IMG/VR virus record: IMGVR_UViG_3300025828_000052 | Span: 1 to 40,954 of that record | Length of the DNA stretch: 40,954 nt | Source of the DNA: a virus | Direction: 5' to 3' (one strand) | In this document: one piece after another, positions 4,194 through 39,643 of the stretch | How positions within the stretch are numbered: the stretch's first letter is position 1 | Layout of the letters: each line of letters begins with the position of its first letter | Program-made: the position numbers and the translations under genes | Notes under the pieces: model-generated | Database searches by the model: none | What the model was told of the DNA's origin: nothing | The model's input: only the letters and a program-made list of their open reading frames with translations

Positions 4194-5129
4194 TTAGGAA
4201 GAACCTGAAGCACCATAAAAACCACGCCAGTCGGACCAGCCAAAGCTGTAACGCTCACGTGCCTTGAACCGAAGATTACCTGTATCAAAGTCAGGTTCCA
4301 TCTTGGTCTGTAGTGGTGCGCGAACAAACATCTTTGTACCATTTGGTGCGTCTGTCTTTAAGAACCAAGCATTTGTATCAGTGAAACGATGGTTTACAAA
4401 GAAACCACCGGGAACTAGACCCTGATTACGAATGCTGTTAATGTCATTGACATTAGTAACACCAGTTGTGCTGTTAGTAGCAGTGGTGGTGCTTAATGTG
4501 CTGTTTAGAATCTGATCTGCAGTAAAGGCAAGATCAGGTGGAATGTGAAGAGACTCTGCACGAATACCGATTAGAATACCACGATCATCCTGTGCTTTGG
4601 AGATAGTGATAAGAGCAGATTCGAGAGATGCTTCTGAAAGATCGGTAGCGTCAAGATCATTGTCTTGAACACCACCATCAATGACTGGATGGTTGTCACT
4701 GAATAGTGGCTGACCATCACCACCAAGATAAGCATTGCTAAAGCCGTTATTGAAAACGTCTGCAGCTTTTACCTGCTTGGTGTTTGCCATTGAACGAGCA
4801 AGACCACGTGCACGTAGTTTGGCAAATGTGTCATAGAGGTTGTCTTCCATTGCCTCTTCTGTAATTGAGAAGGCTAGACTGATTGTCTCGTGTGTGTAAC
4901 GAGCAGTGTAGCTTTCTTGTGCGTCATCATACTGGACAGCAGCACCTTCACTCTTAACAGGTGCAGAACCAAATCCAGTAAATAGAACTTCTTCCTCAAA
5001 TGCACGATCTGAATTTTCAATATCGAATAGAGGTGCATGTTCATTATCAACATCACCATACTCAAGACCGAAAACGGCATTTAGACCGGGAAGAAGCTCT
5101 TTAGCAATACTAGCGCGATTAATAGCCAT
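4194..5129 (-). CDS. Major capsid protein (Mu gpT-like family)
   Basis: This 311-residue protein opens MAINRASIAKELLPGLNAVF and contains SDRAFEEEVLFTGFG, then TISLAFSITEEAMEDNLYD and LGGDGQPLFSDNHPV. These are signature stretches of the Mu gpT-like major head subunit family, which adopts the HK97 fold. It would assemble the icosahedral shell. Length fits the family. It is followed at once by a strong terminator and preceded by a decoration-type gene, a scaffold-like gene and a GroES-like gene, the expected head-assembly order. Start at 5129 has a good upstream AAAGGAGT-type site. Confidence 0.9.
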   Translation of the reverse strand: MAINRASIAKELLPGLNAVFGLEYGDVDNEHAPLFDIENSDRAFEEEVLFTGFGSAPVKSEGAAVQYDDAQESYTARYTHETISLAFSITEEAMEDNLYDTFAKLRARGLARSMANTKQVKAADVFNNGFSNAYLGGDGQPLFSDNHPVIDGGVQDNDLDATDLSEASLESALITISKAQDDRGILIGIRAESLHIPPDLAFTADQILNSTLSTTTATNSTTGVTNVNDINSIRNQGLVPGGFFVNHRFTDTNAWFLKTDAPNGTKMFVRAPLQTKMEPDFDTGNLRFKARERYSFGWSDWRGFYGASGSS

Positions 5130-5152: not shown

Positions 5153-5737
5153 TTAGTTTACTGAAGCATCAGCAGAGATATATGCATCCACATGCTTCAA
5201 GATACGAACTTCCAGCTTGGGGAAGGCACGCTCTGTATTAACAGCAATGTCGTTACCCGGTACATCAAGAACTGCAATTGGACGAAGCATTGCATTTCCT
5301 GTTGTACGAGTGCTGGCTTTAATTCCAAACCCTGACTTGCCAGTAAAGGTAGAACCTGCACCAAGTGTAACATTAAAGTTTTGTGAATTGATATCTCCAG
5401 CAGAAACTGTTGCGTCTGCCTGAACAATAAATGTTGCCTGTGGATTATCAACAACAGCAGCATATGCTTCTGTTACTGAAGTATTAGCTGGCCAGTAAGT
5501 TGACCAGCTTGGTTCACCATTAGCAACATAACGACAACCCATGAAAACACCCATGGCTTTCTGAGTTGTAGTAGTTAGAACTTCAATATTCCCAGCATTG
5601 TTAACGACGATATCACCAGTAAAAATGTTAGTGTCATAGGCACTCGCAATTGGATAGTCATTTGTGGCTTTGCTGTTTGGTGCACCACCACGAATGCGGG
5701 AAGGAGTAAGTCCATTTAGTGTCTTAGTAGTAGTCAT
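5153..5737 (-). CDS. Head-associated (decoration-like) structural protein
   Basis: This 194-residue protein starts MTTTKTLNGLTPSRIRGGAP and carries a beta-rich body with FTGDIVVNNAGNIEVLTT and VFMGCRYVANGEPSWSTYWP. That last motif recurs in phage proteins encoded next to the major capsid gene. It ends ILKHVDAYISADASVN. Its location immediately upstream of the capsid gene suggests a capsid decoration or stabilising protein. No enzymatic motif is visible. The function is inferred from position and composition. Confidence 0.65.
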   Translation of the reverse strand: MTTTKTLNGLTPSRIRGGAPNSKATNDYPIASAYDTNIFTGDIVVNNAGNIEVLTTTTQKAMGVFMGCRYVANGEPSWSTYWPANTSVTEAYAAVVDNPQATFIVQADATVSAGDINSQNFNVTLGAGSTFTGKSGFGIKASTRTTGNAMLRPIAVLDVPGNDIAVNTERAFPKLEVRILKHVDAYISADASVN

Positions 5738-5787
5738 AACACTATGTTCCTTTCCTTGTTAAATACATTGACAAACAGGAAAACAAA

Positions 5788-6270
5788 CTAATCTTGAAAA
5801 GACGCTCGCCGTCCTGTTGTAATTTTTGATCGACTAGAGTTAGAGATAGGCATACGAGAATCAGAGCTGTTCATTAGCTGCATGTTAACAGCTTGTACTG
5901 CCTCTCTACTCTTGTTTTCATAAAACTCTTGACGAGATTCAGCTAGGTCAGTAGGCATTTTGCCTAAAGCCAAGTCTCCACGACAGACCGCTCCTGCATA
6001 TCGTCCTTCTTCCCTCACGACGGAAGATATAAGCATTTCAGGAACTTCTTCCTGACTGACTAATTCCCAACCTTCGGCTAAACGCTTGCCAATGTTTTGA
6101 ATGTCGTCTTGTCCCTTCAAAGTAATTCGCAGCCAGCGAAGAGACATTCCTTCACTCTTAAAACGGTTGCGAACTGTGTCAGGAATATTTAACCAATTTG
6201 GTTCTTCAAAAACTCTACGAGTTTTATTTTCCCTCATGCTTGATTCTCGTGATGTTGTGTTTCGTGTCAT
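5788..6270 (-). CDS. Conserved head-operon protein of unknown function
   Basis: This 160-residue protein begins with a polar Arg/Ser-rich tail, then EPNWLNIPDTVRNRFKSEGM and SLRWLRITLKGQDDIQNIGK. A segment RLAEGWELVSQEEVPE follows, and the end is Ser/Arg-rich and disordered. Marine phages often carry such a protein between scaffold and decoration genes. It may be a minor head component or assembly factor; I see no catalytic motif. Start at 6270 is preceded by AAGGACAAATACA. Confidence 0.65.
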   Translation of the reverse strand: MTRNTTSRESSMRENKTRRVFEEPNWLNIPDTVRNRFKSEGMSLRWLRITLKGQDDIQNIGKRLAEGWELVSQEEVPEMLISSVVREEGRYAGAVCRGDLALGKMPTDLAESRQEFYENKSREAVQAVNMQLMNSSDSRMPISNSSRSKITTGRRASFQD

Positions 6271-6295
6271 TGTATTTGTCCTTCCTTATCCACGC

Positions 6296-7270
6296 TTAAC
6301 TATAAACACTGGTGTATTCGCCATCAGCCTGTTCGACCTTTAGCTTTTCAGCAGCGTACTTTTCAAGTGGTATACCCCATTTATTTGCCAACCTTACATC
6401 TTCTTGAGTAAGTTTGACTTTATTGCTACTCTGAGAAGTTTTTGGTGTGCGTGACGCACCCGCTACCACTTGAGCAGAACTTGTAGTCGTGTCCTGCAAA
6501 CGAGGTGTTTCAGGTTCAGAGTTAATATCCTGAAACTTGTGAGGATAACGCTGACGTAAACGATTGTCAACTTCCTCGTAAAAATCATCATCTGAAGGAT
6601 CATAACCTTCACCCTTCAGTTCTTGGTCAATAGTAAGAGCAGCGGCAGTCATAATCTGATCCTGACCAAACCATGAATTTTTAGTTGCCCATTCTACTGC
6701 CTTTGGATCGTACTCTTGAGTCTGTTGTTGCTGTTGTGCAACTTGTGCTGCTTGCTGCCCATTTGACTCTAAAGCACGATTGTATTCTTCCCAAGCTGCC
6801 TTCTGCTGTTCAACACGATTTTTTTCTGCATAGGCTTTGCTCATGCTTTCTTGTGCTGTCAGCATTCCGTCAGTATCACCTGATTCAACGGCTTGCTTGT
6901 ATAACTGTTTAGCTGCTTCAATGTTTGACTCTAATTGACTCTCAGTACTGTCAATAGAATTTTTTAAACTTGAAGAAAGCTGTGTATCTCTTTCCTGTAC
7001 AGCCGAACGTAGATTATTAATTTCACTACGTAGCTGTTGTAATTCTTCATCGCGTTCTTTACGCTGACGAATTAACTGTCTAATTCTTTTCTCTGCACCC
7101 TTGGTCTGAATACCATCTAGTTCTTCAGGTTGTTCTTCTTCTTTTTCTTGCTTCTTCTCAACCTTCTTAACTTCTGGTGCAGCTTCTAATTCTTCTTCAA
7201 CTTCAAACTCAACTTTAGGAGTTTTGTCCTCATCTGAATTTACGTTAACTGTTGACCATTCTTCACTCAT
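6296..7270 (-). CDS. Scaffold-like capsid assembly protein
   Basis: This 324-residue protein is highly charged and predicted to be largely helical. An acidic N-terminus (EEELEAAPEVKK) leads into EEEQPEELDGIQTKGAEKRI and heptad-rich coiled coils (RQLIRQRKERDEELQQLRSE). A Gln-rich stretch and a C-terminal domain ending KWGIPLEKYAAEKLKVEQAD follow. This layout and its place between the portal side and the capsid gene are those of phage scaffold proteins, which guide capsid assembly and then leave. The family is inferred from architecture. Confidence 0.7.
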   Translation of the reverse strand: MSEEWSTVNVNSDEDKTPKVEFEVEEELEAAPEVKKVEKKQEKEEEQPEELDGIQTKGAEKRIRQLIRQRKERDEELQQLRSEINNLRSAVQERDTQLSSSLKNSIDSTESQLESNIEAAKQLYKQAVESGDTDGMLTAQESMSKAYAEKNRVEQQKAAWEEYNRALESNGQQAAQVAQQQQQTQEYDPKAVEWATKNSWFGQDQIMTAAALTIDQELKGEGYDPSDDDFYEEVDNRLRQRYPHKFQDINSEPETPRLQDTTTSSAQVVAGASRTPKTSQSSNKVKLTQEDVRLANKWGIPLEKYAAEKLKVEQADGEYTSVYS

Positions 7271-7344
7271 TGATATATTTCCTTTTTCTCTTACCCGTTA
7301 GCAGCGAATCTAACGTATTGGTTTAATCTACCCGCTGTATTAGT

Positions 7345-7373
7345 ATATTACAATAAATTATTATAAGATACAA
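7345..7373 (-). promoter_or_regulatory. Weak putative leftward promoter before the head genes
   Basis: On the minus strand TTGTAT (7373-7368) and TAATAT (7350-7345) are spaced by 17 bases in a very AT-rich gap. It would allow extra transcription of the scaffold and capsid genes. Both boxes are only partial matches, so this is tentative. A small GTTAG/CTAAC hairpin lies further down the leader (7297-7314). Confidence 0.25.
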
Positions 7374-7375
7374 AT

Positions 7376-7798
7376 TTAATTTGAAAGATGATATGTAGGA
7401 TCAAGTAGACTTGGTTTTTCAACTTTCATAATTACTTGATCATCAAAGATAAGAAGTAGCTTCATACCCTTGTACATAAACTTCTGTCCTGAATACTTTG
7501 CGTAACAAATATAGTCACCTACTTCACACCATGCTCCGTTAGGAAACTTGTCTTCGTCTTTGTAAGCTAAGTCACCTTTCTTTAAAACTTTAGCAACGGT
7601 AGTGAGGTAAGCTACATCGTCCTTTACTTTATCAGGTAGAATAATACCACCTTTTGTCTTCTGCTTTACTGCTACTGGAAGAACCAGTAGATGAAAGCCG
7701 GGAATGCTTGGCAAACTTTTAAGGTCTACCTTTACTGCACTCTCGTCTGTTACCCAATCAGCAGCATCAACTGCCTTATCCATTCGTACTGCTTGCAT
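7376..7798 (-). CDS. GroES-like co-chaperonin
   Basis: This 140-residue protein has a GroES-type core. LPSIPGFHLLVLPVAVKQK is followed by the mobile-loop region TKGGIILPDKVKDD, then VAKVLKKGDLAYKD, WCEVGDYICYAKYSGQKF and KLLLIFDDQVIMKVE at the end of the barrel. GroES proteins cap GroEL, and T4 gp31 shows that phages use their own version to fold capsid protein. Placement in the head operon, two genes from the scaffold, supports the same job here. It has an N-terminal extension of about 30 residues relative to GroES. A strong AGGAGG lies upstream of the start. Confidence 0.8.
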   Translation of the reverse strand: MQAVRMDKAVDAADWVTDESAVKVDLKSLPSIPGFHLLVLPVAVKQKTKGGIILPDKVKDDVAYLTTVAKVLKKGDLAYKDEDKFPNGAWCEVGDYICYAKYSGQKFMYKGMKLLLIFDDQVIMKVEKPSLLDPTYHLSN

Positions 7799-7996
7799 CT
7801 AGTCCATATCCTCCTCTTCATAGATACGTTGTTTTACAATGTGCTTGAGGCATTCAGTTGCCCATTCCACACCTTCAATCACACCCACTGCGTGACGATA
7901 TTCATCGTAACTTGAAGCGTTACCATATGCAAGAGAATTTTTTAAGTCTAGTATTTTTTCTTCGTACTTTAAATTCAACTCATCCCAAAAGTTCAA
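7799..7996 (-). CDS. Small helical protein of unknown function
   Basis: This 65-residue protein reads MNFWDELNLKYEEKILDLKN, then a middle with GVIEGVEWATECLKHIVKQR, and has an acidic end (YEEEDMD). It is predicted to be helical. It lies between the portal and the GroES-like gene, and its stop directly precedes the next ATG, so the two are probably translated together. Similar short helical proteins occur beside portal genes in other phages. No function is apparent. Confidence 0.6.
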   Translation of the reverse strand: MNFWDELNLKYEEKILDLKNSLAYGNASSYDEYRHAVGVIEGVEWATECLKHIVKQRIYEEEDMD

Positions 7997-8002
7997 AACC
8001 TA

Positions 8003-10528
8003 TTATCCCCTACGTGCCTGTCCAATAAAGTTAGTTAACATGTCTGCTGCTTTCAGTGCCTTGTCCTTGTCAATGCTTGCTTCTGTCTTGGCAAGATCAA
8101 TAAGAGCATCCAAAGCTGCAATTGCTTTCTTTGCATTACGATCCAGTTCTTTTTCTTCTTTTGCACTAGAAAGGTTAGCACCTTCTTTGAACATATTCAA
8201 CTGAATTTCCATTTCCTTTAGATCAAGTTCACGGTTCTTATTAGCAGCAGTAGCAGCTTCCTTTGCCATCTGTGTTTGAACTTTCTGTTGCTCAACACCC
8301 AGACGCTGCTGTTCAATCTGAACCATCTGTGCTTCAGGTGTAGCTGCCATTTGCATCTGTGCTGCAGCTTGATTTGCCTGTGCCACCTGTTGTGCAGCAG
8401 CGGCAATAACCTGTTCCATAAGACGTGGGTCTTGTACGTCCACACCTGCAGCAGCAGCTTCAGGTCCGTACTGTGCAATCATTTCTTTTGACACACCACT
8501 AATCTGTTCCTGATACTTCATTATCATATGTTCCTGAATGTTTGCTTGCAGTACAGGAACAATACGCTGCATCATAGGATTAGCACCATTCATCGGGTCT
8601 TGAATGTACATGGTCTTTACCTGAATATGTGCGTCATGGTTCTGACCCATGAATGCCTGAATTGGCATACCTTTAACTGCAGCCTGAATATCACTGACAG
8701 GATCAAGAGGCATTGGTGAAGGCTTTTCAGGCATGATCTTGTCCAGATTAGGAATGTTTGCTGCCTGAAGAATTGTCTTGTTAAGTTCTTCCACATTGAA
8801 CATACCGGGAGGTGCTGACTGAGACAACTGCAGTGCAAGCTGTGCCATCATCATACGGTGTGCAGAGGAAGGAATATTAGGATCAGATACAGGAATAATA
8901 TCAATCCTGCCATCAAAGTCATTACGATAGATATTAAGTGTACCGTTTGGAATATCTACCATTGATTCTTCAGGTAGATATTCATAGTTAATTCTACTTA
9001 GTAATTTAAATTCGTCATGTTGTGACTTATGTAGTCGTTTGTGAATTGCACTAAAGAATTTGCTGCTTGCTTCCAACAGTGCCATTGTTGTGCCAACAGG
9101 ACCGTAACTTGCTGCATCTGAAATAACCTGTTCGGTTGTGTCGGCAAACTTCTGTGCAGTAGCAGTAACAAAGTTAAGCATCTGAAACAAAGTCTGTGAA
9201 GGTTCTTTGTATGGCAGATTGATGATCATCTTGGACAGATCATTACCTGTAGCTTCAACTTCTCTAAACTCACCGGGAGCAATAGGATCATTGTCACCTA
9301 CAATACGTAAACCCTTCGCCTTAAAGCCGCCGGGTAGGTTTGCAAACTGACCTGCATCAACCAAGCTACGCATTGCTGCAGTTGCAGTCATGGTAAGATT
9401 ACCAAGGAAATGAATCAATCCTAGACCATAAAAACCAAAACCGGGAACAAAACGATAATGAGTAAAGAAGATTTTCTTTTCTCTGCGCCGATCATCTTTA
9501 TTGTAGTTTCTGCGAATAGACAAAACCTTACGGCTCTGTTCTTCAATGGTAACAATATAGGGAAGAGACAAACCATCATCGTCTGCAAACTTACCGGGCA
9601 GATCAAGATAGCAGTGCTGCTCAAGAAGAACGTACTGTGGATCGTGACTACCAGAAGGAGACAGACCCATAATTGTATCCATCTTCTGACTGATAGGAGC
9701 AAACTCTGGTGTACTTGCTTCAGGTAGGTCTATGTCTGCGTACATTCCTGCTGCCATGTCTCGCTGCATCTCTACTGGTGAGCGATAGATAACATGCGTG
9801 TAGCGATCTGCTCTGCGTAGATCGGTAGCATAATAAGACACATAGAACTGGTCAATAGGAACAAACTCTGATACAGGTCGGTTTAAACTGCTGTCAAAGT
9901 AAATCTTTTTAAATGCTGATCCAATAAGCGGCAGGTGAAAGAGCATACGCTCAAACTCGTCAAAGTACTCAGGCATTTGTTCAGTGATCTGATAGTTCAT
10001 AAAGTCTTTGACTCTATGGCTTTGCTTTTCTTTTTCTTCTGATACTTCACCAATGATCTGGGACTTTACTGGTCCACTGGCAGGAAACAATTCCTGTGTT
10101 GCCTTTGACTGAAACTTAACTGCTGACTCAATAAGGATTGGATGAACTGCAGTACATGCACCTTCAAATGGTTCTGATGCTTCTTCCAGCTTTAGACCTA
10201 ACAGATCAAAGCCACGTTCAAACATACTTTCCCATTCTGCTCGACTGTCCTTGTCTGCAGTAAAGTTGTCATGTACTTGAATGGCAATGTCTTCAAGAGT
10301 TTCTTCGTCCAGATCGTCTACCAAGTTTCTAAAAAACTCTTCGTCCTTTTCTTCGATCTGTTCGTCAGACAAGCCTTCATCTAAATTACTCTTAAACTCT
10401 ACTACAATACCACCATCACTAGGATCGTATTCCATGCTTGCATTTGAATCTTCACTCTCAGTTTGAATCTCTACGACTGAAAGTTCTACTGAAGGAATAG
10501 GATCAAAAGGATTGCGTTCAGTTGCCAT
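8003..10528 (-). CDS. Portal protein (large podovirus type)
   Basis: At 841 residues this is the largest protein in the window. The core has ASEPFEGACTAVHPILIESA, VKFQSKATQELFPASGPVK and a stretch through VPIDQFYVSYYATDLRRADR, all typical of the large podoviral portal family. A Gln/Ala-rich helical C-terminal part (about residues 670-800) forms long coiled coils like the portal barrel. Twelve copies would make the ring through which DNA enters and leaves the head. It is next to the terminase block and upstream of the chaperonin and scaffold genes, as expected for head assembly. Confidence 0.88.
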   Translation of the reverse strand: MATERNPFDPIPSVELSVVEIQTESEDSNASMEYDPSDGGIVVEFKSNLDEGLSDEQIEEKDEEFFRNLVDDLDEETLEDIAIQVHDNFTADKDSRAEWESMFERGFDLLGLKLEEASEPFEGACTAVHPILIESAVKFQSKATQELFPASGPVKSQIIGEVSEEKEKQSHRVKDFMNYQITEQMPEYFDEFERMLFHLPLIGSAFKKIYFDSSLNRPVSEFVPIDQFYVSYYATDLRRADRYTHVIYRSPVEMQRDMAAGMYADIDLPEASTPEFAPISQKMDTIMGLSPSGSHDPQYVLLEQHCYLDLPGKFADDDGLSLPYIVTIEEQSRKVLSIRRNYNKDDRRREKKIFFTHYRFVPGFGFYGLGLIHFLGNLTMTATAAMRSLVDAGQFANLPGGFKAKGLRIVGDNDPIAPGEFREVEATGNDLSKMIINLPYKEPSQTLFQMLNFVTATAQKFADTTEQVISDAASYGPVGTTMALLEASSKFFSAIHKRLHKSQHDEFKLLSRINYEYLPEESMVDIPNGTLNIYRNDFDGRIDIIPVSDPNIPSSAHRMMMAQLALQLSQSAPPGMFNVEELNKTILQAANIPNLDKIMPEKPSPMPLDPVSDIQAAVKGMPIQAFMGQNHDAHIQVKTMYIQDPMNGANPMMQRIVPVLQANIQEHMIMKYQEQISGVSKEMIAQYGPEAAAAGVDVQDPRLMEQVIAAAAQQVAQANQAAAQMQMAATPEAQMVQIEQQRLGVEQQKVQTQMAKEAATAANKNRELDLKEMEIQLNMFKEGANLSSAKEEKELDRNAKKAIAALDALIDLAKTEASIDKDKALKAADMLTNFIGQARRG

Positions 10529-14129: not shown

Positions 14130-14273
14130 ACTCTCTATATAGATTATGTTATAGATTAAAATATAGAAAAAAGTATATAGATTAAAATAAAGACTTACAA
14201 TATCAACTAGGTTAAGACTTTATGATATTGATCTTATTATATCTATATAGAATTATAGCCGGGTAGCGAACCT

Positions 14274-14381
14274 GTTTAACACACCCTAGTATTTTTTTAT
14301 TATTATAGCCACCCCTCTCTTGTAAAATAAAACAAAGGGGGGTGTTTTTTTATTTGTAGTTTAAACTACCCTAGTATTTTT
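14274..14381 (+). repeat. Two copies of a 23-base repeat ending ACCCTAGTATTTTT
   Basis: GTTTAA, three variable bases and ACCCTAGTATTTTT occur at 14274-14296 and 14359-14381, matching at 21 of 23 positions and 85 bases apart. The two copies flank the terminator-like hairpin. Repeats of this length in a divergent control region could be promoters for an unseen phage polymerase or regulator sites. Confidence 0.6.
14310..14351 (+). terminator. Terminator-like hairpin in the control region
   Basis: CACCCC (14310-14315) pairs with GGGGTG (14339-14344), and an inner TTGT pairs with ACAA. A run of seven T follows at once (14345-14351). The tail is on the plus strand only, so it would stop rightward transcripts that begin within the control region. 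Confidence 0.5.
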
Positions 14382-14466
14382 GGTAAATATATGACAGTGG
14401 CATTATCATATGACGTGCGCACGGGGCATATTTTTTCCGTGGGGGTACGGCAAATTAGATGCAGAA

Positions 14467-14628
14467 TTGCATGTATATATACAGTCAATTATATATGTAA
14501 ATTTGCATATACTTTTGCATATACTTTTGCATGTATCTTTGCATGTAAAGTTAGACGCAAAAGCGCAGGAAAATTTATATGCATAATTGCATATATTATT
14601 GCATGCATCTTTGTATGTATCTTTGCAT
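14467..14628 (+). repeat. TTGCAT iteron array on a 12-bp lattice
   Basis: TTGCAT occurs at 14467, 14503, 14515, 14527, 14539, 14587, 14599 and 14623, with the variant TTGTAT at 14611. Every position differs from the others by a multiple of 12. The repeat unit is roughly TTGCATRTAYYT. Regularly phased short repeats in an AT-rich, non-coding region next to early genes are the usual form of replication-origin iterons, so an origin or initiator-binding array is likely. The open frame across it (FAYTFAYTFAC) is a by-product of the 12-base period. Confidence 0.65.
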
Positions 14629-14659
14629 GCATTTATTTATACACTTTCCGAGGTGTGAA

Positions 14660-21597: not shown

Positions 21598-21619
21598 ACT
21601 ATACCGCAGGAGAGCGAAG

Positions 21620-21862
21620 ATGAAAATATTTGATCTTGAACAAGAGATTATGAAGGCTTGGCATGTCGTAGATGACATCCAACTTCTTAATGAGAATGTC
21701 ATGGAAACAGATATGTCTACTGACGATATTGCTAATGCTCTTCTTGGATTAGAAAAGCTGTACAATATGAGATTTGAAAAGGTTTTTAATACGTTTGAAG
21801 AAGTCTGCAAAGAATATCATGCAATGAGGAAACAAAATGAAAACAATCACGCTACAAGTTGA
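21620..21862 (+). CDS. Conserved phage protein of the MKIFDLEQ type
   Basis: This 80-residue protein starts at ATG 21620, with AGGAGAGCGAAG before it. It reads MKIFDLEQEIMKAWHVVDDI, then MSTDDIANALLGLEKLYNMR and ends MRKQNENNHATS. Similar proteins occur in marine myoviruses and podoviruses and are unnamed. It is helical with an acidic centre. The initiation region is copied at 22450-22471 (see the scar feature). Function unknown. Confidence 0.7.
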   Translation: MKIFDLEQEIMKAWHVVDDIQLLNENVMETDMSTDDIANALLGLEKLYNMRFEKVFNTFEEVCKEYHAMRKQNENNHATS

Positions 21863-22449: not shown

Positions 22450-22490
22450 AGAGCGAAGATGAAAATATTTGCAATGGTGAAAGGAAATGA
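22450..22490 (+). pseudogene. Duplication-deletion scar joining the ends of two upstream genes
   Basis: Bases 22450-22471 are identical to 21611-21632, the ribosome site and first codons of the MKIFDLEQ-type gene. Bases 22472-22490 match 22045-22063, the end of the KTITLQVEDVD-type gene, at 18 of 19 positions. The join creates a 14-codon frame (MKIFAMVKGNELES) overlapping the next gene's start. It looks like a tandem copy of the two genes from which the middle has been lost. Confidence 0.65.
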
Positions 22491-22687
22491 ATTGGAAAGT
22501 TAAAATTTATCTATCGAAAGATAAAGAGGACTGGCTTTATTTGGTAGATGAAAACACACTTGAACTAAAAGTGTTCGATGATTGGACAGATGCTCAAGTA
22601 GCAGCACACGTTTGGTCTTATTCGGACATAGAAGAAGAGAGCGAAGATAAAAATGTACACAACTTATCACTTAAAGGAGATAAATAA
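22487..22687 (+). CDS. Small hypothetical protein
   Basis: This 66-residue protein reads MNWKVKIYLSKDKEDWLYLV, then a middle with LELKVFDDWTDAQVAAHVWS and ends VHNLSLKGDK. It starts within the scar described above, which supplies AAAGGAAATG. The sequence looks like a small alpha/beta domain. It stops just before the next gene, providing AAAGGAG in its last codons. Function unknown. Confidence 0.6.
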   Translation: MNWKVKIYLSKDKEDWLYLVDENTLELKVFDDWTDAQVAAHVWSYSDIEEESEDKNVHNLSLKGDK

Positions 22688-22945
22688 ATGAAGATGATCG
22701 TGACAGAAATTGAGAATGAAGGTCTTGAGGCTTTGATGGGTAAACGAGTTACTCTGTTTTGCGGTGTTTATATTTACACCGGAAAGCTGGTAGGTGTGAA
22801 TGACACTTGCGTTAAGTTGGAAGACGCTGGTATTGTTTACGAAACTGGTCCTTTTACTGAAAGTCATTGGAAGGACTGTCAGAAGCTACCTAACGATTGG
22901 TATGTCGCTACTCAGAGTATTGAATCGTTTGGTGTGTTGAAGTAG
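22688..22945 (+). CDS. Conserved small phage protein of the GKRVTLFCGVYIYTG type
   Basis: This 85-residue protein contains LMGKRVTLFCGVYIYTGKLV and VNDTCVKLEDAGIVYETGPF, then LPNDWYVATQSIESFGVLK. I recognise this pattern from hypothetical proteins of marine phages and some bacteria. It is probably a small beta-barrel (SH3- or Sm-like) domain, judged by strand spacing. The ribosome site with its start codon (CTTAAAGGAGATAAATAAAT) is shared with the holin-like gene at 39437. Function unknown. Confidence 0.65.
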   Translation: MKMIVTEIENEGLEALMGKRVTLFCGVYIYTGKLVGVNDTCVKLEDAGIVYETGPFTESHWKDCQKLPNDWYVATQSIESFGVLK

Positions 22946-22957
22946 TCTTGTTATAGC

Positions 22958-23323
22958 TGATGTTCCAAACAAAGAGAATTAAGACTAAGACTAGGTCTGG
23001 GTATAGGGCTTGGTTTGGGTCTGGGTCTAGGTCTAAGTCTGTGTCTTGGTCTGGGTCTGAGTCTTGGTATAGGTCTGGGTCTGGGTCTAGGTCTAAGTCT
23101 GTGTCTTGGTCTGGGTCTGAGTCTTGGTATAGGTCTGGGTCTTGGTCTTGGTCTTGGTATAGGTCTTGGTCTGGGTCTGGGAGTAATTGATGTTCCAAAC
23201 AAAGAGAATTAAGACTAGGTCTGGGTCTTGGTCTAGGTATTGGTCAGGGTCTGGGGATTGTTCTGGGTATTGGTCTTGGTATAGGTCTTGGTCTGGGGCT
23301 TGGTCTGGGTCTAAGTCTAAGGC
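22958..23323 (+). repeat. GGTCTN hexanucleotide repeat tract
   Basis: About 340 bases consist almost only of variants of GGTCTN (GGTCTG, GGTCTA, AGTCTG, GGTATA, GGTCTT). Inside is a 60-base tandem duplication: 23041-23100 and 23101-23160 share their first 40 bases and more. A 30-base block beginning TGATGTTCCAAACAAAGAG occurs at 22958-22987 and 23188-23217, each at the head of a tract. Several frames stay open on both strands only because of the repeat (for example GLGLGLSL, RPRPRPIP), so I treat it as non-coding. The G-rich strand is the transcribed-sense strand. Confidence 0.85.
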
Positions 23324-23335
23324 AGGAGAGTGAAG

Positions 23336-23527
23336 ATGAAACTATACACAACTGACAAAGACTTTGACCTGTTACATCAGGCAGTGGACAAAGCAAGAAA
23401 GAATGCAAGGGAAGTAAAAGTACCTAGACAATCTATTCTAAATGTGTTAATGGATCATGCTAACTTTATCACTGCACTCAAACAACATGGAGAAGACATT
23501 GACTATCCGAATGGAAAAGGCGATTGA
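23336..23527 (+). CDS. Small helical protein after the repeat tract
   Basis: This 63-residue protein starts at ATG 23336 (GGAGAG six bases upstream; the in-frame GTG at 23330 overlaps the ribosome site). It reads MKLYTTDKDFDLLHQAVDKA, then VKVPRQSILNVLMDHANFIT. It may be a helix-turn-helix-like or RNA-binding fold but nothing decisive is visible. It overlaps the deaminase-like gene by 17 bases. Confidence 0.6.
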   Translation: MKLYTTDKDFDLLHQAVDKARKNAREVKVPRQSILNVLMDHANFITALKQHGEDIDYPNGKGD

Positions 23528-23909
23528 TCTACTTGCCAAGGTGGCAGAAGATATCACTGATCCAGTTCGTTGCTATCGTCTTGCGGCAGGTGTATGGTGC
23601 AAGCATAGTCTTGTAGGTCTTGGTGTTAATTCATACAAGACTGATCCGTTTCAAGCTAAGTATGGCAAGCATGAACATGCCATACACCTGCACGCAGAGG
23701 TAGCTGCAATCAAGAACGCAGTACGAACAGTAGGTGATGACCTGTCTAGGTGTACGATGGTTGTTGTACGTGTGAAGAGAGAACATGAACGTACAAACAA
23801 ATTCAAAACAACTCTTGCAAAACCATGCAAGGGATGCTATAGATGCATCGTAGAGTTTGGTCTACGTAAAGTTTATTACACAACAGAGAAAGGACTAGAA
23901 CAGTTATGA
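23511..23909 (+). CDS. Cytidine/deoxycytidylate deaminase-like zinc enzyme
   Basis: This 132-residue protein (start taken at ATG 23511; ATG 23487 is possible) carries the deaminase signature: HLHAEVAAIKNA (His and Glu of the HAE motif) and PCKGCYRCIVEFG with the second and third zinc ligands. An upstream YKTDPFQAKYGKHEHAI matches a phage subgroup of this fold. It would deaminate a cytosine nucleotide or a related compound. With MazG, ThyX and RNR it may feed dUMP to thymidylate synthesis, though the substrate is inferred. Confidence 0.75.
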   Translation: MEKAIDLLAKVAEDITDPVRCYRLAAGVWCKHSLVGLGVNSYKTDPFQAKYGKHEHAIHLHAEVAAIKNAVRTVGDDLSRCTMVVVRVKREHERTNKFKTTLAKPCKGCYRCIVEFGLRKVYYTTEKGLEQL

Positions 23910-36403: not shown

Positions 36404-37133
36404 TCTTCCTACAATCTACATAGGATATGATCCAAAGGAAAAAACGTACTGTGATGTGCTTGAATACAGCATTAATAAATATACTTCTGGTCCTGTAAAT
36501 ATTGTACGTCTTACTCAGGATAGTGTAAGACGTTCAGGTTTGTATTGGAGAGCAGGTACTATCAAGGAAGGACAGCAGGTAGATACGTTTGACAATAAGC
36601 CTTTCTCTACTGAGTTTAGTTTCACACGTTTTCTTGTACCATTCCTTAATGTGCATCAAGGTCTTGCCCTGTTTGTTGACTGCGACATGTACTTTAGAGA
36701 TGACGTTATGAAACTATTTAATATGTTCTCAGACAGAAACTTTAGTGTTGCCTGCGTCCACCACAACTATGTTCCTAAAGATACATATAAAATGGACAAC
36801 CAGTTACAGCAGTCTTATTACAGAAAGAACTGGTCTAGCTTTATGCTTTGGAACTGTGCAAGTCCAGAATTAAATGAACTTACTGTAGCTGACGTTAATG
36901 TTAAGAATGGTAGCTGGCTACACTCTTTATATTGGGCAGATAAAGTAGCACAACTGGCTGAAGAGTGGAACTGGCTTGACGGTCATTCATCTGAAAGCAT
37001 TGATCCTAAGTGTGTACACTTTACAACAGGAGGACCATTGTTCAGAGGATGGGATGGTAAGAGAGAGATAGACAACCACTATGCAAAAGAGTGGACTGAA
37101 TTATATAAGGAGATGAGTGAACAAAATGGTTAG
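36396..37133 (+). CDS. Glycosyltransferase-like protein
   Basis: This 245-residue protein starts at ATG 36396 (MSSLPTIYIGYDPKEKTYCD), preceded by GAGGAAG. It has the start-strand pattern of GT-A glycosyltransferases and a DxD-type metal motif in LALFVDCDMYFRDDVMKLFN, then SSFMLWNCASPELN and KCVHFTTGGPLFRGWDG. It probably adds a sugar to a host or virion glycan using a nucleotide-sugar. It overlaps the following fusion gene by eight bases and may act with it. Confidence 0.75.
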   Translation: MSSLPTIYIGYDPKEKTYCDVLEYSINKYTSGPVNIVRLTQDSVRRSGLYWRAGTIKEGQQVDTFDNKPFSTEFSFTRFLVPFLNVHQGLALFVDCDMYFRDDVMKLFNMFSDRNFSVACVHHNYVPKDTYKMDNQLQQSYYRKNWSSFMLWNCASPELNELTVADVNVKNGSWLHSLYWADKVAQLAEEWNWLDGHSSESIDPKCVHFTTGGPLFRGWDGKREIDNHYAKEWTELYKEMSEQNG

Positions 37134-39423
37134 ATTTGTAACATCATTTAGTGATAGTGGTTATGTAAGCTATGCTAAGAATATGCTAGAGTCAGTGGCT
37201 AAGTTTTGGAAGAACGATCTGAAGTTGATTGCTTACTACCATGACTGCCCTGAAGAATTAGTAGCTGACTTTCCACAGTCAGAAGTTATTGAGTATCGTA
37301 ATCTAAATGATGTTCAAGACATGCTGAACTATCGAGAAAGAATGAAGGACCACGATGGTACTGAGGGTGGCAAGATGCAGTACAATTGGCGCATGGATGC
37401 TATCAAGTGGTCACACAAAGTATATGCCATGACTGACCTGTCCCTAGAGATTGGTGACAAGGAAGCAAAGGGTGGCTGGATGATCTGGTTGGACGCAGAT
37501 ACAGTAACCACAAAAGCATTCTGTAAAAAGAAACTGATGAAGATTGTTCCAGAGAAGTGTGAATTGGTTTACTTGGGAAGACAGGATACAGACTACAGTG
37601 AAACTTCCTTTGTTGCATTTAACCTTGACTATCAGTCACCACACTATCTGCTTGCTGATCTGAGGGGATGCTATGATATTGGTGAGGTAGTATCGTATCG
37701 TGAATGGCATGATGGATTTATCTTTGAACGTCTTCTAAAAATATACCTTGCTCATGGAATGAAGGCACACAATCTCACACCAAATGTTACTGGATTAGCT
37801 GCCTTTGCCAACTCACCACTGTCACAATACATGGTACACTACAAGGGTAATTTAAAGCAGCAGCTATCTAAGGAAGAAGTTACACCTGATGTTAATCTTC
37901 CTCGCTACCGTCAGCTTGCTGATCTGGTACGTACATATGCTACTGATAGTATCGTTGAGGTAGGTACATGGAATGGTGGACGTGCTATTGAAATGTCCCT
38001 TGCTGCATTTGAGAAGACTGACACACTACACTACACAGGCTTTGATCTATTTGAAGATGCAACAACAGAGACAGACGAGCTAGAGTTTAACGGTAAAGCA
38101 CACAATGCTATGGAAGCTGTGACAAAACGTCTAACAGAATTTGCAGAGAAGATGAAAGAGAAGGACAAGACGTTTACCTTTGACTTATACAAGGGTGACA
38201 GCAAGAAGACACTAAAGAAACACCGCAGTAAGTTAAAGAATGTATCCTTTGCATTCATTGATGGAGGTAACAGCGAGGAAACAAAGAAGGCAGACTATGA
38301 CAACCTTGACCATGTTCCTGTTATTGTCTTTAATAATTTCTTTTCCAAAGATCAGGAAGGAAAGATTGTTGACGAGAAACATCAGACGGTAAACCGTTTT
38401 GTAAAGTCTTTAAACGGTAAACGTATTACAGTTCTTCCTTCACAGGACAGAGTAAAAGAGGGTGGGCATACTCATCTAGCTGTACTACTTAATGGTGATG
38501 ACGTACCTGATTTACCTGTAGAGTTTAGGCGTGTACCTATTGTAGTTCAGCCACGTGACTCTGTACCAAAGGATAACATCGTTGACAATATCAATAAGAA
38601 TGTAGAACTTATTAACAGTTGGGACATGATTCGTAACTGTCATGTGCATGACGAACATGCTATCATTGTATCTGGTGGATCATCCGTTGACTTTAAGAAA
38701 CTAAAGAAGCTACAAAAGAAAACAAATGGACGAATTGTCTGTGTAAAACACAGCTATCCAAAGTTGCTCAAGGCTGGTATAAAACCATGGGCATGTGTTA
38801 TACTAGACCCTCGACCTATTGAAGGTGAAAGTACGCACGGTGTTGTACGATCTACTTTGTTTGAGACAGTTGATCCAAGCACCATGTTCTTTGTTGCGTC
38901 AATGACTGATCCTTCAGTGACAGAGTTGTTGTTATCAAAGACTAATCAGGTGTATGGCTGGCACGCTTACTCACAGGCAGTAGCTAATACAGTTAAGAAT
39001 CAGAAGGGTAAGAGTCTAAAGATAAACGAGAACCTAAATGTACCTGAAGACACTACGTTTGTTAATGGTGGTACTTGTGCAGCAATGAGAGCAATAGGCA
39101 TGATGCATATATTTGGCTTTAGAAACTTTCATCTGTTTGGTTTTGACTGTTCATTCCCTGATGAGACAGCTATTGATCTGAAAGAAAAGTTAGAAGACGG
39201 TAGAAACAAGTACATGAAGGTAGAGACAAACGGTTCAGAGTTTTGGACTACTGGTGAACTTCTTGCTATGGCACAGGATTGCGAAAAGTTATTTGATAAT
39301 GACTCTATTGAAATGAATGTGTTCATGTATGGAGAAAATACTCTTGTCTCTGAGGTATATAAAACCTCAAAGCAGGCAGATAAAGTTTACTACATTGATT
39401 TAATTACAAAGCAAGCAGCTTAA
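37126..39423 (+). CDS. Three-domain protein: glycosyltransferase-like, methyltransferase, DUF115-like
   Basis: This 765-residue protein (start ATG 37126; an in-frame GTG at 37117 is too close to the ribosome site) joins three parts. Residues 1 to about 240 resemble a GT-A glycosyltransferase, with KGGWMIWLDADTVTTKAFCK carrying the DxD. About 265-410 is a class I methyltransferase (DSIVEVGTWNGGRAIEMSLA and VSFAFIDGGNSEETKKADYD). About 490-765 resembles DUF115/MAF-like proteins (AIIVSGGSSVDFKKLKKLQK, KPWACVILDPRPIEGES, GFRNFHLFGFDCSFPDE). DUF115 proteins are linked to surface glycans such as flagellin sugars. Together with the preceding gene it may modify a glycan; the pathway is inferred. Confidence 0.8.
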   Translation: MVRFVTSFSDSGYVSYAKNMLESVAKFWKNDLKLIAYYHDCPEELVADFPQSEVIEYRNLNDVQDMLNYRERMKDHDGTEGGKMQYNWRMDAIKWSHKVYAMTDLSLEIGDKEAKGGWMIWLDADTVTTKAFCKKKLMKIVPEKCELVYLGRQDTDYSETSFVAFNLDYQSPHYLLADLRGCYDIGEVVSYREWHDGFIFERLLKIYLAHGMKAHNLTPNVTGLAAFANSPLSQYMVHYKGNLKQQLSKEEVTPDVNLPRYRQLADLVRTYATDSIVEVGTWNGGRAIEMSLAAFEKTDTLHYTGFDLFEDATTETDELEFNGKAHNAMEAVTKRLTEFAEKMKEKDKTFTFDLYKGDSKKTLKKHRSKLKNVSFAFIDGGNSEETKKADYDNLDHVPVIVFNNFFSKDQEGKIVDEKHQTVNRFVKSLNGKRITVLPSQDRVKEGGHTHLAVLLNGDDVPDLPVEFRRVPIVVQPRDSVPKDNIVDNINKNVELINSWDMIRNCHVHDEHAIIVSGGSSVDFKKLKKLQKKTNGRIVCVKHSYPKLLKAGIKPWACVILDPRPIEGESTHGVVRSTLFETVDPSTMFFVASMTDPSVTELLLSKTNQVYGWHAYSQAVANTVKNQKGKSLKINENLNVPEDTTFVNGGTCAAMRAIGMMHIFGFRNFHLFGFDCSFPDETAIDLKEKLEDGRNKYMKVETNGSEFWTTGELLAMAQDCEKLFDNDSIEMNVFMYGENTLVSEVYKTSKQADKVYYIDLITKQAA

Positions 39424-39436
39424 AGGAGATAAATAA

Positions 39437-39643
39437 ATGATTGAACTTCTTACAAATAACTCAGATGTTATTATCAGTACAGTCACAGGCATTATTACAG
39501 TAGCTAGCCTTATCATTGCAGGAACTAAAACTCCTGATCCTGACACACTTCTAGGCAAGCTATATAAAGTAGTAGAGTTTCTAAGTCTTACTATCGGCAA
39601 GGCTAAGGAAACAGGAAAGCCTGAAGAAGTTAAGGCTGAGTAA
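39437..39643 (+). CDS. Holin-like small membrane protein
   Basis: This 68-residue protein has a short N-terminal tail (MIELLTNNSD), one hydrophobic segment VIISTVTGIITVASLIIAG (about residues 11-29) and a polar C-terminal part with TPDPDTLLGKLYKVVEFLSL. A single-helix protein right before a spanin pair fits a holin or pinholin. A short related phage family with TKTPDP...KLYK is known to me as unassigned. AAAGGAGAT precedes the ATG. No endolysin is seen next to it. Confidence 0.65.
   Translation: MIELLTNNSDVIISTVTGIITVASLIIAGTKTPDPDTLLGKLYKVVEFLSLTIGKAKETGKPEEVKAE

Follow-up and report, generated by a model that had tools for sequence, protein, structure and literature searches.

A hexanucleotide repeat tract in an uncultured phage probably encodes tandem low-complexity proteins paired with an Sm-like protein

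The Sm-type fold forms the core of cellular RNA-processing rings, and a crystal structure of a phage-type Sm-like protein of putative cyanophage origin exists. Eukaryotic Sm and SR proteins carry low-complexity tails rich in RG or RS. The TRAP protein binds RNA with (G/U)AG repeats, and diversity-generating retroelements employ adenine mutagenesis and a reverse transcriptase to produce hypervariable codon positions in a constant frame. Here we describe several hundred uncultured phages, with no other neighbouring gene in common, that carry a pair of tiny genes, neither of which any of the libraries searched assigns to a family. The pair joins an Sm-type fold to an extremely simple protein that keeps its composition through a wholesale turnover of residue order and silent sites. 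It came from a window of 40,954 nucleotides (the whole of IMG/VR virus record IMGVR_UViG_3300025828_000052), in which a long tract of GGTCTN units probably encodes a low-complexity phage protein twice in tandem. This protein, with a basic head followed by serines alternating with Trp, Arg or Gly, would be made together with the Sm-like protein encoded upstream and most likely acts with it.

The upstream gene (22688-22945, plus strand) encodes an 85 aa protein of a new family, which is the constant partner of the tract. An AlphaFold2 single-chain model reached a pLDDT of 94.2, and the best Foldseek match in the PDB had an E value of 4.8e-4 and a probability of 1.0, all matches listed being Sm/LSm-fold proteins. 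The model predicts an Sm/LSm fold composed of an N-terminal helix and a bent small beta barrel, the same as in archaeal SmAP1 and eukaryotic SmD3 and Lsm1-7 of the Sm/LSm/Hfq superfamily. The phage protein differs from these in sequence: searches of the PDB by phmmer or profile gave no match at E ≤ 10, Pfam gave none above cut-off (sub-threshold DUF6897 only), and the only NCBIfam match, MM0924, was likewise sub-threshold. By eye, a YxGxLxGVN motif looks like the beginning of Sm1, but neither the canonical Asn nor the RG of Sm2 is evident; as canonical Sm RNA-contact residues are not obvious, RNA binding by this protein is not assured. Profile iteration led to a second, divergent Sm-like subfamily for which predicted structure and Foldseek again indicated an Sm fold.

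The repeat tract follows on the same strand. The original prediction of a long GGTCTN tract with a 60-bp duplication and a repeated 30-base header was borne out by Tandem Repeats Finder (TRF) and by exact copies. Of its bounds, 22958-23323, the repeat content stood and the end coordinate did not, since the tract runs to the stop codon of the second open reading frame at 23333. Within the 366 bp to 23323 are 28 of the 63 GGTCT units of the whole window, along with two 30-bp headers and the duplication. TRF placed a period of 6 at 22994-23181 and one of 60, with 92% match, at 23012-23179; at 23218-23312 it reported periods of 30 and 42. The header TGATGTTCCAAACAAAGAGAATTAAGACTA occurs exactly twice. 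Its first copy (22958-22987, plus strand), which is conserved in the related contigs L001 and L002, supplies ORF 1 with its start codon and its basic head MFQTKRIKT; the second (23188-23217, plus strand) holds the stop/start overlap between ORF 1 and ORF 2. The tandem duplication (23016-23142, plus strand) lies within ORF 1, comprises 20 codons in frame and is exact across 67 positions from 23016 at an offset of 60. Near-identical phage contigs from other assemblies show the same header and tract type; the tract is neither a chance occurrence nor an isolated assembly artefact. Many contigs break off within or next to an array of this kind, so a precise array length taken from one assembly calls for caution, and all lengths given here depend on metagenome assembly of uncultured carriers.

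Two adjacent ORFs cover the tract, and we regard it, with the same degree of confidence as the overall reading, as probable coding sequence rather than a non-coding DNA element. ORF 1 (22960-23190, plus strand; 76 aa, MFQTKRIKTKTRSGYRAWFGSGSRSKSVSWSG...) starts 14 bp past the stop of the Sm-like gene, and its frame and head are conserved in relatives. It overlaps with ORF 2 (23190-23333, plus strand; 47 aa, MFQTKRIKTRSGSWSRYWSGSGDCSGYWSWYRSW...KAGE) in the sequence TGATG, which is preceded by GGGAG. Both translations begin with the short basic head MFQTKRIK and continue as (Ser-X)n, in which Trp, Arg or Gly fills most X positions, and the KAGE end of ORF 2 is common to the orthologues in contigs L126, L127 and L128. 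Every tract ORF examined next to an Sm gene had its GGTCT units in a single reading frame, preceded by a start codon and a head. The putative protein recalls the tails of eukaryotic Sm and SR proteins in being Arg/Ser/Gly-rich, disordered-looking and adjoined to an Sm fold, but it is a separate, coupled gene with strict serine alternation and Trp at about a quarter of X positions, and we claim no homology. More extensive arrangements occur elsewhere: contig L008 (minus strand, approximately 5540-8600 of the reverse complement) carries more than 12 tandem Ser-X ORFs with short stop/start junctions between them, and some arrays in L054, L038 and L101 have a second long open neighbouring frame that would read as (Gly-Leu)n.

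The association of both genes was examined in either direction. When 2.9 million viral contigs were scanned for DNA with four GGTCTN units, about one in three of the loci listed had a gene for the Sm-like protein next to the tract; where the tract lay within 1.5 kb of the Sm gene, it was on the Sm strand in 108/108 cases and downstream in 96/108. Scans with the two Sm-like subfamilies matched 226 and 404 loci, from each of which 80 were taken, with possible overlap between these lists and with the earlier loci. Of the Sm-like loci whose downstream sequence sufficed, 98/108 (subfamily 1) and 63/68 (subfamily 2) had a Ser-X ORF no more than 1.2 kb away on the strand of the Sm gene. The misses included two loci with short, sub-threshold arrays (L199, L217) and three Nitrospinota MAG contigs (L225, L228, L229). 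Starting from arrays preceded by 600 bases or more of sequence, an Sm gene was found at 43/58 TCT arrays and 44/48 TCA arrays (named by their serine codon), always on the same strand. Only 6/330 control windows matched, every one at a locus that already had a Ser-X array. AGCNGG made a poor DNA probe, as unrelated sequence makes up most of its matches. The array start overlapped the Sm stop by exactly 4 bases at 92/176 loci and lay between -4 and +3 at 120/176, which suggests translational coupling at many loci; the window pair, with its 14-bp gap, departs from this overlap. The head type of the Ser-X protein also tracks the Sm subfamily. Fusions of both proteins were absent among the Sm-like loci examined, and two candidates (L352, L374) were rejected as out-of-frame ORFs spanning the Sm gene.

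No third conserved gene was found, the largest neighbour cluster comprising 7/174 loci, which indicates that the two genes travel together from one phage to another, unrelated one. The best reading would be a mobile phage module made up of an Sm-like protein and a partner that is disordered and cationic/aromatic, probably a complex that binds nucleic acid. Neither gene gave a model above cut-off in Pfam, PHROGs, NCBIfam or PADLOC. Within an incomplete coverage, literature searches gave nothing relevant on array peptides, on hexanucleotide repeats of phages or on repeats that accompany their Sm-like proteins, so that the pairing appears undescribed in the literature searched.

Comparison of arrays between phages showed that the protein pattern was kept while its DNA spelling changed. 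The dominant serine codon among 227 arrays was TCT in 105, TCG in 71, AGC in 27, TCA in 20, TCC in three and AGT in one, and at loci found through the Sm protein 94% of serines used the codon of their own array. TCN and AGY codons are more than one silent step apart, which argues that serine itself is kept. Trp was present in 217/217 long arrays, and Trp, Arg and Gly were all present in 208. Judged from these sequences, the conserved entity is the protein and not the DNA. Frame, coupling, the two-way co-occurrence with two Sm-like subfamilies and an amino-acid pattern that persists across spellings together form the sequence basis for favouring a Ser-X protein that works with the Sm-like protein.

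Array length and order vary rapidly. Contigs L126, L127 and L128 share about 97% identity with the window downstream of the tract and 99.6-99.7% among themselves. L127 and L128 have flanks identical at 4887/4900 positions, yet their arrays count 93 and 69 codons; the L126 array has at least 62 residues, as the contig begins inside the ORF, and array order also differs among the three, always in frame. Such differences between near-identical phages indicate a hypervariable locus. An internal block duplication (p ≤ 0.01) was present in 23/204 arrays, including that of the window, and the proposal of a slippage-prone variable locus, for which a comparison of tract length among related genomes had been suggested, was thus supported. 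Unit order was near random in most arrays. Within arrays, diversity at the first base of X was 0.65 and at the silent third base of Ser 0.09, a difference of about 7-fold. The Ser codon was common to 85-91% of pairs with at least 80% Sm identity and to only about 30%, near chance, below 80%, which indicates that whole arrays turn over.

The economical reading of these patterns is homogenisation by slippage or exchange combined with selection for the residue mixture, although it accounts for the 7-fold diversity and the random order only if this selection is strong. The uniform silent sites, the excess at the first base of X and the near-random order would also fit a dedicated phage process by which arrays are rebuilt over and over from one hexamer, with randomisation confined to that base. 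Every lineage would then make a different random polymer of W, R and G, set on a lattice of serines, as an expendable partner of an Sm-like ring. We consider such a process unlikely; if real, it would be a protein-diversification mechanism unlike the retroelement-based ones. Ser-X arrays do resemble the targets of diversity-generating retroelements in having hypervariable codon positions inside a constant frame. Diversification by a retroelement was nevertheless rejected, as reverse transcriptase (PF00078) was absent from the 40,954-base record in a search that detected its controls, and arrays spelled with AGC or TCA serines keep their A nearly constant, unlike under adenine mutagenesis. A selfish or neutral expansion, in which a dispensable gene drifts without function beside a functional Sm-like gene, would agree with the hypervariable length and with ORF copies multiplied up to a dozen or more in L008. 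We judge it improbable, given that the same amino-acid pattern recurs under six Ser codons with its frame kept and Trp in every array, and that the pair travels among phages with no other shared neighbour.

Other explanations place the function in the nucleic acid. The repeat might act as RNA, (GGUCUN)n being a multivalent site for the neighbouring Sm-like protein and its translation incidental. Neighbourhood and strand are constant, and TCT arrays are strongly biased, with 95% TCT among Ser codons and 92% GGG among Gly codons against 25% and 11% in background genes. This bias had made a TRAP-like RNA ligand of an Sm ring the early leading idea; in both cases a ring-type protein would be found next to a repeat of regular spacing whose spacer base varies. 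The idea was dropped because loci found from the Sm side used other Ser codons: the phage repeat is translated, and in other phages it is spelled NGGAGC, NGGTCA, NGGTCG or NGGTCC, so that we reject the claim that it works like TRAP. Moreover, L211 carries TCT and AGC arrays with one Sm gene, and L233 and L327 likewise contain differently spelled arrays, which argues against sequence-specific repeat recognition by their Sm proteins. The third base of Gly GGN (diversity 0.069) is about as uniform as that of Ser, and NGG is more variable at its middle G, indicating no extra constraint on GG. An RNA ligand is thus quite improbable in our view. For the structural DNA elements of the original prediction (G-quadruplex, R-loop, or a recombination, packaging or replication site) speak the simple-sequence character of the tract and the GG dinucleotides every 6 nt in most units of the coding strand. 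However, the plus strand of the window tract holds no canonical G3 motif (four GGG runs, loops of 1-7), and 30/217 arrays have one compared to 35.5/217 after shuffling of unit order, so quadruplex or R-loop formation was not supported. Nor was a recombination, packaging or replication element: a conserved protein was found in one of the frames, with the Ser-X frame kept in all arrays, frequent start/stop coupling to the Sm-like gene, tracts always on the Sm strand and a hexamer respelled elsewhere. We hold DNA elements of this kind to be very unlikely. Hardly more credible is a translational control in which runs of NGG codons (AGG, CGG, UGG, GGG) stall or trap ribosomes. About 80% of X codons are NGG with variable N, regardless of residue, and one report describes 5' NGG codons as suppressive via peptidyl-tRNA drop-off (PMC12204400). 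Such control leaves the roughly 20% of X codons that are not NGG, the serine kept across TCN and AGY codons and the Sm-like partner unexplained.

For the favoured Ser-X protein, a head that matches the Sm subfamily, a cationic Trp-rich tail, stop/start coupling and an early DNA-metabolism neighbourhood suggest a nucleic-acid-binding complex or condensate. The Sm-like protein may form a ring onto which the disordered cationic/aromatic partner would dock via its head. Once docked, the partner could bind nucleic acid, and the resulting phage ribonucleoprotein or condensate might serve early replication or recombination. Unequal exchange or slippage would homogenise the codons of each array, and selection would keep the mixture of W, R and G, such that composition matters and order does not. 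The pair thus offers a natural experiment on composition-only selection and concerted evolution of low-complexity proteins, and it may reveal a phage ribonucleoprotein or condensate.

The window itself belongs to a tailed phage, with terminase and capsid genes on the minus strand at the left and rightward-reading genes for primase-helicase, PolA, ThyX, RNR and dCMP deaminase. Directly behind the tract lies a small co-directional gene without family match (23336-23527, plus strand; ATG at 23336 after GGAGAG, the ORF tool having placed a GTG start at 23330). It is followed by the dCMP deaminase-like gene (23457-23909, plus strand; PF00383, E 6.8e-9), which has at least 60 viral relatives and served as their anchor. 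In other carriers, inspected neighbour clusters often hold ERF, YqaJ, AAA_24 ATPase and DUF669 genes. The phage records named no host for the carriers and gave only Manatee Spring metagenome phages. A genome scan yielded MAG contigs from several phyla; those from Nitrospinaceae/Nitrospinota (L225, L228, L229) encode a relative of the Sm-like protein, 55-64% identical to the query, without a nearby Ser-X ORF, in L229 close to a gene for an Mrp-type ATPase. The phage gene may have come from such a cellular source.

Some further features were observed. Another low-complexity ORF (MLGSLAMLRSL... repeats) lies about 0.8-0.9 kb upstream of the Sm gene in L186 (4903-5073) and L222 (3306-3761). In the window, AT-rich 12-bp tandem repeats (e.g. 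TTTGCATATACT) at 14137-14632 coincide with the divergence of gene orientation and the turn of the cumulative GC skew, and may mark a replication or promoter region. Short gene-start regions recur as exact 22-bp repeats (21611-21632 with 22450-22471, and 39419-39440 with 22670-22691), which are possibly shared leader or ribosome-binding segments. A 768-aa protein encoded at 37117-39423 combines Methyltransf_24 and MptE-like (6-hydroxymethylpterin diphosphokinase-like) domains.
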